Shown here in pieces: positions 31,653-33,094 of a stretch of DNA of 64,000 bases (positions are counted from its first letter, which is position 1; each line of letters begins with the position of its first letter). The DNA comes from Lachnospiraceae bacterium (GTDB lineage Bacteria; Bacillota; Clostridia; Lachnospirales; Lachnospiraceae), in assembly GCA_024403455.1 (NCBI GenBank), contig JAKSRR010000018.1, positions 1-64,000 of the forward strand, read 5' to 3'. The notes beneath the pieces are model-generated. The model worked only from the letters and a program-made list of their open reading frames with translations. It did no database searches and was not told the origin of the DNA. The position numbers were made by a program, and so were the translations under genes.

Positions 31653-32744
31653 TTAAAATAAAATTCCTTTAAAGCACATATTCTGCTTATGTTCTTCAAA
31701 GTTCCAGGTATGAAATGCGCCGCCGGCACAAAATGCAAAATCTTTGCAGTCCTTACAGCCTTCTTCACACCGCCAATCTGTGCGGTACTGTGAAAACTTC
31801 TTCAGCCAAACTTCTTTAAAATCATCCTGTCTGATATTACCCTGGATTAACTCCGGTCTTCTTTCCACATCCAGACACGCTGCTATATCACCATTCCACA
31901 TGATACTAGCCGTATATATGCCTGCATTACACAGGAAATACCACTTACGAACTTCCCTTTCATAATCAAGTCCCAAATAATGTGCGCAGCCATAAACAGT
32001 GGGAAGCAATGAATCATCATAATGCGTCCGGATATAGTCCATCATATACTTATAATCTTCTGGCTCCAGTTTTAAATCAGGGTTATCCTTCGCTCGTCCA
32101 ATGGGATCCATATTTATCACACGCCAGGACTTTAAGATATTCTCCTTTTTTAACAGCTCATGTAATGCCGGAATTTCTTCAATGTTTTTCTTATGCACAA
32201 CAGTGGTTACCTGAAGATGCTTTACCCCACTATAATCGTGCAGGGCATGAAGTCCCGCCATGGCCCTGTCAAAGCCACCCTCTGTCTGTCTAAACCAATC
32301 ATGGGTCTTTGGCAGTCCATCAATACTAACGGAAATCGTTCCAAGACCAACGCGCTTTAGCTCCTTTGCAACCTTCTCATCAATAAGGGTTGCATTGCTG
32401 GTCATTCCCCAGTGATATCCCAGACTGTGGGCATACTCCATAATTTCAAAAAAGTCCTTTCGAAGAAGTGGTTCTCCTCCCGTAATACACAACTGCATAT
32501 CACCGATATCAAACTGTTCTTTTGTTTTTTTCAGGAATGCCTTGATCTCAGCCGCCGACAGTTGTCCCTCTGGTTCTGTCTCACCGCATCGACTGCCGCA
32601 ATGTCTGCAACGCTCATTGCAAAGATTGGTCATCTCAATAAACAGAAAGCGAAGGCGGGGGTTCTTTCGAAGTTCCCCACGAAACTCTGCAAGACTGGTC
32701 ATATGTTGTTTTTTTGTTCTTCTAGACAGTACAGGTATTGCCAT
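31653..32744 (-). CDS. Radical SAM/SPASM enzyme coupled to a repeat lipoprotein
   Basis: The 363-aa protein has the radical SAM motif CNERCRHC (residues 42-49), the GGEPLLR segment that binds SAM and SVSIDGLP. The C-terminal SPASM-type region has Cys in WNGDIAACLD, then CEEGCKDC, FCAGG and a final Cys near the end. SPASM enzymes with this make-up modify ribosomal peptides or proteins using auxiliary Fe-S clusters. The ATG overlaps the stop of the small repeat lipoprotein gene (TAATG), so the two are translated together. From memory this resembles the enzyme of the described rSAM/lipoprotein systems of Bacteroidetes. The modification made is unknown. Confidence 0.85.
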   Translation of the reverse strand: MAIPVLSRRTKKQHMTSLAEFRGELRKNPRLRFLFIEMTNLCNERCRHCGSRCGETEPEGQLSAAEIKAFLKKTKEQFDIGDMQLCITGGEPLLRKDFFEIMEYAHSLGYHWGMTSNATLIDEKVAKELKRVGLGTISVSIDGLPKTHDWFRQTEGGFDRAMAGLHALHDYSGVKHLQVTTVVHKKNIEEIPALHELLKKENILKSWRVINMDPIGRAKDNPDLKLEPEDYKYMMDYIRTHYDDSLLPTVYGCAHYLGLDYEREVRKWYFLCNAGIYTASIMWNGDIAACLDVERRPELIQGNIRQDDFKEVWLKKFSQYRTDWRCEEGCKDCKDFAFCAGGAFHTWNFEEHKQNMCFKGILF

Positions 32745-33094
32745 TACATATCCTCAGGTGGTCCATATACACACACATCCATATTCTCCTCGGGATGAAA
32801 ATCAGGAATGATTTCTTCCTCTGGATTCTTCCTGGAATCTTCCTCAGATTCTTCCTCATCAAACAAATCCTCCGGAGGGCCATATACATCAACGTTCAGA
32901 TTCTCGGAAGGATCATAATCGTCAACAATATCCTCCGGGGGGCCATATACTGCCACTGGCACATTCTCTTCGCTATTAAACTTACATCCTGTACAAAGCA
33001 TGGTCAGCAAAACAGCGCCCAGACATACACCATATTTTTTCTTATGGCCTTTGAAACCAAAAGCATTTTTCCAGGCATTCAAAAACGACTTCAT
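32744..33094 (-). CDS. Small lipoprotein-like protein with three VYGPPED repeats, candidate radical SAM substrate
   Basis: The 116-aa protein has a positively charged N-terminus (residues 1-20), a hydrophobic stretch YGVCLGAVLLTMLCTGC and a candidate lipobox Cys37 (CTGC, not the canonical LxGC). The mature part holds three copies of a 14-residue repeat with pattern [ES]EN-x-x-V-x-VYGPPED at 42-55, 63-76 and 102-115; Tyr50, Tyr71 and Tyr110 are in register. Acidic spacers separate the repeats. AAAGGAG lies 6 nt before the ATG. The stop overlaps the start of the radical SAM gene. I infer that the repeats are the target of that enzyme, as in multi-core peptide precursors. Confidence 0.75.
   Translation of the reverse strand: MKSFLNAWKNAFGFKGHKKKYGVCLGAVLLTMLCTGCKFNSEENVPVAVYGPPEDIVDDYDPSENLNVDVYGPPEDLFDEEESEEDSRKNPEEEIIPDFHPEENMDVCVYGPPEDM
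32750..32971 (-). repeat. Three in-frame copies of a 42-bp coding repeat
   Basis: The copies are at 32930-32971, 32867-32908 and 32750-32791. The best kept DNA part is GGVCCATATAC with TCCTC next to it; third positions vary between copies while the VYGPPED residues do not, which points to selection on the protein sequence rather than a recent duplication. Confidence 0.85.

Follow-up and report, generated by a model that had tools for sequence, protein, structure and literature searches.

A radical SAM/SPASM enzyme and a repeated Tyr-Gly-Pro-Pro tag in Lachnospiraceae: a candidate modifier and substrate pair related to rSAM/lipoprotein systems

In the first 64,000 nucleotides of contig JAKSRR010000018.1 from a Lachnospiraceae bacterium (assembly GCA_024403455.1; this whole stretch is called the window), two overlapping genes on the minus strand raise the question of what a radical S-adenosylmethionine (SAM) enzyme of the SPASM type does to the small repeat protein encoded beside it. 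Comparison across related genomes supports the view that the two are modifier and substrate. The enzyme most likely rewrites the Tyr of the repeat, possibly by excising a piece of the backbone and leaving a reactive group in its place.

The gene pair and its tag

The putative substrate (32744..33094, minus strand, as are all features below) is a 116-residue exported protein and probable lipoprotein, which reads MKSF...LLTMLCTGC followed by EENVPVAVYGPPEDI, SENLNVDVYGPPEDL and EENMDVCVYGPPEDM. Its N-terminal signal region covers residues 1–36 (32987..33094) and is followed by the predicted lipid-anchor Cys37 (32984..32986), in a lipobox (LCTGC) that is atypical in having C at -3 and L at -4, as judged by inspection. 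The core VYGPPED then occurs at residues 49–55 (32930..32950), 70–76 (32867..32887) and 109–115 (32750..32770), each time within a wider unit, [ES]EN-x-x-V-x-VYGPPED, and between acidic spacers. Among the 21 pairwise codon comparisons of the cores seven differ, every one synonymously, so that it is the peptide and not the DNA that is kept; even a single VYGPP arose in only 2 of 20,000 shuffles of the protein, which has no match in Pfam or NCBIfam. Its stop codon (TAA) overlaps the start (ATG) of the enzyme gene in ATGTAATGG. The enzyme, of 363 residues (31653..32744), is assigned as a TIGR04133-related radical SAM/SPASM protein from its TIGR04133 score, Pfam domains, trees and AlphaFold2 model. 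An earlier note, made from this DNA alone, had described the exported protein with its three repeats, the TAATG overlap and the varying third positions under a constant motif, and all of these were borne out.

Seen across relatives, the repeat is one instance of a tag with the consensus [FY]xPxxN-x(4)-[VIL]-Y-G-P-P-[EP]. Sixty units from 25 partner open reading frames were collected with a pattern demanding YGP, which is therefore present in 60 of 60 by construction, while the remaining positions were free to vary: [FY] at -11 occurs in 43/60, P at -9 in 34/60, N at -6 in 40/60, V at -1 in 50/60, P at +3 in 56/60 and E or P at +4 in 52/60. Profile A1 was built from 38 of these units. The pattern leaves out one YGVP unit (genome G238) and two YGCP units (G266; G and L numbers are our handles for genomes and loci), and the SGPP and YAPP units of G041 and G189 lie outside the 25 frames.

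The earlier note had framed the tag as a lipoprotein feature, a description that proved too narrow. Signal-peptide lipoproteins do carry it, in 1 to 7 copies where the note had asked how many repeats homologues hold, and G007 has two tandem tagged lipoproteins and, some 5 kb further on, another small tagged protein. The tag also sits on DUF805 membrane proteins (by Pfam in L022, 2.9e-21, and G238, 4.5e-16; by inspection in L023, L024, L026 and G120), and as a single copy between the ribbons of zinc-ribbon proteins (by Pfam in G248; by inspection in G092, G029 and, unlinked to the enzyme gene, G120 and G180). It is thus a portable tag, found on unrelated carriers and sometimes far from the enzyme gene. 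In the trees, the nearest relatives of the window enzyme are those with DUF805 carriers. Over its first 17 residues, the window protein is similar to the N-termini of these DUF805 partners (8.0 bits, with 1 of 2000 shuffles higher, against a profile of five relatives that excludes the sixth, L026), and it may be that the window protein is a cut-down descendant of such a partner, although the resemblance is suggestive only. As a separate observation, the enzyme and zinc-ribbon partner of G029 (L040) lie among WXG100-like, kinase-like and phosphatase-like proteins (by inspection), a setting like that of a type VII secretion cluster.

Pairing of enzyme and tag across genomes

With the window enzyme as query, matches were found in 19 of 397 same-family genomes at 1e-60, and the two same-genus genomes listed gave none; across the phylum, 2 of 398 genomes sampled matched at 1e-40. 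An enzyme profile found matches in 7 of 246 genomes at the order level (1e-60), and the TIGR04133 model in 12 of 291 at the class level (1e-50), none of the 291 over the cutoff of that model. Named contigs of Oscillospiraceae, Lachnospiraceae and Lachnoclostridium supplied five further loci, of which two are of gut origin (goat colon, roe deer rectum). In a 48-row tree, the branches of the first family also hold enzymes of a second (f200), a placement that suggests transfer. No relatives were found on viral contigs with two queries, or in phages with the Nostoc enzyme discussed below as query.

The tag follows the enzyme closely. A 21-position tag profile matched 17 of the 397 same-family genomes at E 0.05, and 16 of these belong to the 19 that encode the enzyme. 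The counts are 16 genomes with both, 3 with the enzyme only, 1 with the tag only and 377 with neither (Fisher p 1.2e-24), where the two scans are taken as the same genome set from the agreeing handles of their listed rows, and where the 377 are the informative part, the profile having been built partly from these genomes and the 16 being no independent evidence of its sensitivity. The tag-only match (G158, E 0.013), an open frame of 60 codons, is probably spurious and was counted as a miss. As for the three enzyme genomes without a tag match, G266 encodes two YYGCPN lipoproteins, that is, a variant tag, and G041 and G189 are considered below. The co-occurrence supports the earlier proposal, read from the letters of one locus, that the repeat protein and the SPASM enzyme are substrate and modifier. 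The note had held that the small protein being widespread without the enzyme would speak against the proposal; this was looked for in the 397 genomes and was seen in none but the probably spurious G158.

Adjacency tells the same story in a wider sample of 37 TIGR04133-like loci, made up of 24 from the family search and named contigs, four at the order level (G912, G927, G846 and G991), six at the class level (G1208, G1073, G1237, G1198, G1092 and G1067) and three from plasmids; G1117 and G1197, which score higher with TIGR04103 than with TIGR04133, were left out. In 33 of the 37, a gene for a partner with an X-Y-G motif adjoins the enzyme gene. The other four are G041 and G189, which are decayed, G991, in which the enzyme is partial with an internal stop and no partner was seen, and G120. 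In G120, no partner lies within the 18.6-kb stretch around the enzyme, but two tagged proteins, one DUF805 and one zinc ribbon, are encoded elsewhere in the genome. G180 likewise has one unlinked tagged protein besides the adjacent one. G158 apart, every genome in which an unlinked tagged gene was found also has the enzyme.

Where the enzyme is broken, so is the tag. The enzyme of G041 lacks the whole CX3CX2C stretch, and its GGEP has become GAEP; the partner reads NINQPRSGPPEMAG, with the tag in register and its Val and Tyr replaced (SGPPE). The G189 enzyme has a frameshift, and the sequence in its neighbour is CGGLYAPPPDF, with YAPPP at the core. A core that has lost Tyr or Gly thus accompanies 2 of 2 broken-enzyme loci vs 0 of 22 intact ones (p 0.0036), numbers that are small and come from classes set after looking, with the G189 frameshift open to being an assembly error and with two loci counted as intact: L020, which a contig end truncates, and G266, where the match includes one stop, located ahead of the open frame that holds the cysteines. 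The note's placing of the likely target in the Tyr-Gly-Pro-Pro core is upheld as well, for its YG. The G041 locus (L015/L038) is also of interest in itself: its 347-codon frame is open, the radical SAM cysteines being lost and the SPASM cysteines kept, and it represents a pseudo-enzyme.

Relatives of the enzyme and surroundings of the pair

The window enzyme belongs to the radical SAM/SPASM class by its cluster motif and its SPASM cysteines, and by its Pfam domains (Radical_SAM, 8.1e-24; SPASM, 2e-8). A CX3CX2CX3C motif (32586..32621) holds the SAM-cluster cysteines C42, C46 and C49 and a fourth conserved C53; the SPASM region (31674..31988) holds C253, C272, C290, C330, C333, C339 and C357, and lacks the final Cys of the SPASM CX2CX5CX3C motif. 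C42, C46, C49, C272, C290, C330, C333, C339 and C357 are invariant in alignment A2, as is H345. The AlphaFold2 model (predicted local distance difference test 89.5; predicted template-modelling score 0.89) has a SPASM-enzyme fold, for which the top Foldseek matches are SkfB, SuiB and anSME (TM-score to query 0.65 to 0.71 over ranks 1 to 7), and a search of solved structures by sequence returned 12 distant radical SAM sequences. The modelled fold is in keeping with an enzyme that modifies peptides or proteins; it gives no indication of the reaction.

The earlier note had pointed to rSAM/lipoprotein pairs of Bacteroidetes and had proposed that both proteins be searched against such families. Of all models, TIGR04133 (rSAM_w_lipo) matches the enzyme best (269.3 bits, E 4.3e-80), and in a 35-row tree the enzyme forms a sister branch of the true members with support 99/99. 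In the 48-row tree, window enzyme and members fall on the same side of a 98/97 branch, the joins inside that side being open. We regard the enzyme as a relative and not a member of TIGR04133, because it stands on the sister branch but scores 269 bits where the cutoff requires 425. The corresponding partner model, TIGR04134 (lipo_with_rSAM, cutoff 39.8 bits), matches neither the window protein nor anything else in its genome.

Nevertheless, the systems share an adjacent lipoprotein and SPASM enzyme and a Y-G-x-P motif in the partner, and in the broad sense of an exported YGxP partner beside a TIGR04133-like enzyme the window pair is an rSAM/lipoprotein system. Three plasmid-borne TIGR04133-type enzymes have the same 11 conserved cysteines as the window enzyme. 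Their lipoproteins read SCYGMPENYY (Treponema), CEYGSPHANF (Parabacteroides) and CEYGTPSADY (Phocaeicola), each with one YGxP that either follows the predicted anchor Cys immediately or lies 10 to 12 residues beyond it; the Treponema and Parabacteroides loci, the two that were scanned, pass the cutoffs of both models. A bridging case is G1208, the partner of which exceeds the TIGR04134 cutoff (52.3 bits) and reads GCGMYGPPPRSYY, with the motif MYGPPP, which indicates that the YGPP and YGxP motifs belong together. Several differences remain. First, the window partner has three YGPP copies in acidic spacers vs one YGxP near the anchor Cys in TIGR04134. Second, it has no carboxypeptidase-regulatory-like cargo domain. 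The Bacteroidetes link that the note made therefore stands, whereas the "tail" position it gave to the motif there does not, the motif lying near the anchor Cys in the TIGR04134 lipoproteins fetched. Its suggestion of a distinct multi-copy branch likewise stands.

The pair type is thus already known, being catalogued as TIGR04133/TIGR04134, hypothetical equivalogs in NCBIfam. In the literature searched, we met no paper on a VYGPP-type motif or on TIGR04133 and no chemistry for YGxP lipoprotein systems; a prior description in Scott et al. 2022 (Chem 8:2659), Morinaka et al. 2018 or Haft and Basu 2011 is possible. Three features appear to be new, none having been met in that literature: the portable tag in several copies, its decay along with the enzyme, and the link to spliceases set out below.

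Neighbouring genes were compared over 27 stretches, comprising 24 enzyme loci, the window included, and three with unlinked tags, several of them cut by contig ends. Besides the enzyme and the tagged proteins, at least three of the 27 stretches share a response-regulator-type family (in 4) and a GGDEF-like family (in 3), both named by inspection; the only other families to recur this often belong to the surroundings that the close relatives L022–L024 have in common. In the window, a purF-like gene lies 27 bases upstream and a cysE-like gene 24 bases downstream on the same strand, both below curated cutoffs. They do not seem part of the system, because they are not among the recurrent families. 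An empty-site comparison in three genomes with both flanking genes (G004, G335 and G002) found the purF-like and cysE-like genes on different contigs, and a promoter and terminator scan, with 4 promoter-like sites vs a shuffle mean of 11.8, was uninformative.

The proposed reaction on the tag and its alternatives

What, then, would the enzyme do to the tag? By analogy, the chemistry is likely X-Y-G splicing of the PlpX/TIGR04103 kind, a point absent from the earlier note, and with a confidence only a little better than even we favour a reading of the pair as enzyme and substrate, with splicease chemistry on the XYG core and the repeats as a protease trap on the cell surface. The reaction, its site, its order relative to export and its role within this reading are what we infer. 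The SPASM enzyme would recognise the tag repeats in the cytosol and would modify the X-Y-G core of each before export and anchoring on the outer face of the membrane. The Tyr would lose a tyramine equivalent and the chain would be closed again, such that the residue before Tyr, Val here, would become an alpha-keto-beta-amino residue followed by Gly-Pro-Pro. The modified repeats would stay on the anchored carrier, given that the pair has no accompanying protease, exporter or leader, and the resulting surface-held array of electrophilic ketoamides would trap proteases, with Val at the P1 position. Alpha-ketoamides react with active-site Ser and Cys. The P1 residue would be Glu in two Bacteroidota members fetched.

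The splicease is proposed because of the X-Y-G core, the related TIGR04103-like enzymes and the substrates of the latter, which include LYGLPPELF and PIRPLYGIEPP. X-Y-G is the constant element across the partners examined, and VYG occurs three times in the window protein. According to PMC10533398 and PMC11002830, PlpXY, whose PlpX is likewise a SPASM enzyme acting on X-Y-G, removes C8H9NO as a tyramine equivalent, so that an alpha-keto-beta-amino residue remains; PlpX was assayed along with PlpY, a protein with a RiPP (ribosomally synthesised and post-translationally modified peptide) recognition element, or RRE (PMC11002830), and spliceotide products are described as protease inhibitors in PMC11117315. 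The substrates of PlpX and TIGR04103 are leader-type RiPP precursors, whereas the substrate here is a leaderless exported protein. TIGR04103 is the model in which PlpX presumably falls, and we take it to be the entry IPR026482 that PMC11002830 names.

In the best 60 of 301 plasmid records, a Nostoc nif11-class maturase 3 ranks next by E-value behind the TIGR04133-like and Agathobacter enzymes. This enzyme scores 853 bits with TIGR04103, and its Nif11 precursor ends GSIALYGLPPELF (ALYGLPPELF), a core close to the tag units VYGPPEMF and VYGPPEWF. In the 48-row tree, TIGR04133-like and TIGR04103-like enzymes are separated together, at the 98/97 branch, from PqqE, MftC, NirJ, TIGR04053, TIGR04347 and one Paenibacillus enzyme; an earlier tree of 35 rows gave the same join, there taking in the ACGX enzyme, at only 76/80. 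The 35-row tree had left out L048, L002, L003, L015, L020 and L021, of which L048 came back as a family row, and the 48-row tree additionally dropped the long-branched ACGX row, L011 and L023. In columns picked after looking, E262 is present in 41 of 42 and R266 in 40 of 42 enzymes of the two groups, as against 1 and 0 of six other SPASM enzymes. The window enzyme is related to TIGR04133 and, with less certainty, to the TIGR04103-like enzymes.

A class-level search with TIGR04103 gave matches in 7 of 236 genomes at 1e-50, none over cutoff, and all seven loci (G1131, G1194, G1197, G1068, G1038, G1117 and G1179) have XYG partners within 3.5 kb, one of which reads PIRPLYGIEPPVRPLYGIEP, these partners being judged by eye from repeats or leaders, without a shuffled control. 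Like the window pair they combine multi-copy XYG or VY(A/G)GPEYF repeats with an adjacent enzyme, some with zinc ribbons; unlike it they belong to a separate enzyme clade (100/100), and four have GG-leader peptides, two of these with an exporter. In G1197, the TIGR04103-like enzyme carries TPR repeats and lies beside a 337-residue frame (L136:2727-3737) in which nine YG[VIA]P repeats come after an I42 (chagasin) inhibitor domain (6e-12), a hint, from domain composition, of a link between XYG repeats and protease inhibition.

Other TIGR04103-like loci are described in their own right. L137 and L144 (G1117 and G1179) encode GG-leader peptides with several XYG cores and, by inspection of the domain, a C39-peptidase-type ABC exporter, and their products are likely secreted and spliceotide-type. 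L145 and L147 (G1131 and G1194) encode CVYAGPEYF and MMVYGGPEYF repeats, one with a zinc ribbon, several copies having Ala between Tyr and Gly. On the Agathobacter rectalis plasmid NZ_CP143948.1, an unannotated short frame (L048:3677-3889) just upstream of a TIGR04103-like enzyme ends FGPVMYGTGVRM and is likely a missed precursor. Finally, enzymes about 48% identical to the Nostoc maturase accompany the GDL-motif DUF1843 peptides (TIGR03913), which resemble the systems above in being short peptides, several with an N-terminal xYG (L085, L092 and L095), and which may be substrates of similar chemistry; they differ in being small and leaderless without VYGPP repeats, and in that YG is not constant (MYM, LYA).

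Having set out the case for splicing, we would note that a number of observations weigh against it. With TIGR04103 (cutoff 725), the score of the window enzyme is no more than 106 bits, below the AhbD, TIGR04053, NirJ, AhbC, MftC and ACGX models, and the TIGR04133-like and TIGR04103-like clades differ at fixed positions (R208/Q, R217/N and H345). Both trees are limited by long branches and few outgroups (six in the 48-row tree), and PlpX is absent from the tree. For PlpXY, a YGLP context is not enough by itself: of 16 FtsZ constructs with splice tags built on PIRP(L or G)YGLPI, only 2 were spliced, both GYG (PMC10533398). No recurrent small, RRE-like neighbour was seen in the 27 stretches, where an RRE profile was not run and the genome elsewhere was not searched. 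The by-eye recognition of the seven TIGR04103-like partners counts here as well, as do the many VYAGP repeats of G1131 and G1194, in which Gly does not directly follow Tyr, and the inconstant YG of the GDL-type peptides. As to the role, the zinc-ribbon partners look cytosolic, a poor fit to a surface protease trap.

Given the same pair, the enzyme could instead make a carbon–carbon cross-link, a triceptide-like three-residue cyclophane (-2.016 Da) joining the Tyr ring to the +2 residue (Pro in YGP) or a neighbour. SPASM enzymes are known to cross-link Tyr motifs, and the first Foldseek matches, SkfB and SuiB, are cross-linking maturases. We consider this unlikely, though worth keeping in mind: the +2 residue varies by branch (P; S, T, M, V, C) and it is the Gly at +1 that is constant, the related TIGR04103-like enzymes come with XYG precursors resembling that of PlpA, and the scores with two models of cross-linking enzymes, DynA (83.9 bits) and WgkB (101), are far below that with TIGR04133. 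A thioether of the sactipeptide or ranthipeptide kind was rejected, there being no constant core Cys (at most 7 of 60 units, at -2).

It is also rather improbable that the enzyme works some other change on Tyr or backbone, such as epimerisation, Tyr oxidation or decarboxylation to a bound cofactor of the PqqE/MftC kind, with the carrier as electron carrier or ligand. The position of tags on membrane-anchored proteins and between zinc ribbons would suit such a role, and the PqqE, MftC, NirJ and AhbD models all match the window enzyme; yet the PqqE, MftC, NirJ, TIGR04053 and TIGR04347 enzymes lie across the 98/97 branch (AhbD is absent from the tree), and no oxidoreductase recurs beside the pair in the 27 stretches.

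Very unlikely, in our view, is a released RiPP, a bacteriocin or signal cut from the repeats. Repeats in acidic spacers do resemble multi-core RiPP precursors, and G1117 and G1179 pair GG leaders with an exporter, but no protease or exporter is among the recurrent families, and the carriers are signal-peptide, multi-transmembrane or zinc-ribbon proteins; a released bacteriocin had been set aside for want of a recurrent protease, exporter or leader. That the repeat protein is no substrate at all, the enzyme acting elsewhere and VYGPPE serving as a binding or structural motif, as acidic polyproline repeats can in protein interactions, is the least credible reading, given the tight co-occurrence, the confinement of unlinked tags to enzyme genomes (G158 apart), the unrelated carriers, the decay of Tyr or Gly with the enzyme and the YGxP partners of the TIGR04133/TIGR04134 systems.

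Returning to splicing as the favoured chemistry, the branch described here links the YGxP lipoprotein systems to the spliceases through motif, enzyme relatedness and a bridging member, and yields a single concrete prediction, the loss of C8H9NO per repeat. More tentatively, and at odds that we put well below even, we suggest that splicing may be a general modification of anchored and cytosolic proteins in Clostridia, in which one enzyme per genome would act in trans on the portable tag [FY]xPxxNxxxx[VIL]YGPP[EP] and each carrier would trap proteases through several alpha-ketoamides, the P1 residue being set by the tag. If true, backbone splicing would be a modification of proteins, not of peptides only, in many Clostridia and Bacteroidota, and a short natural tag would direct it in trans to unrelated carriers, with protease trapping as a possible role.

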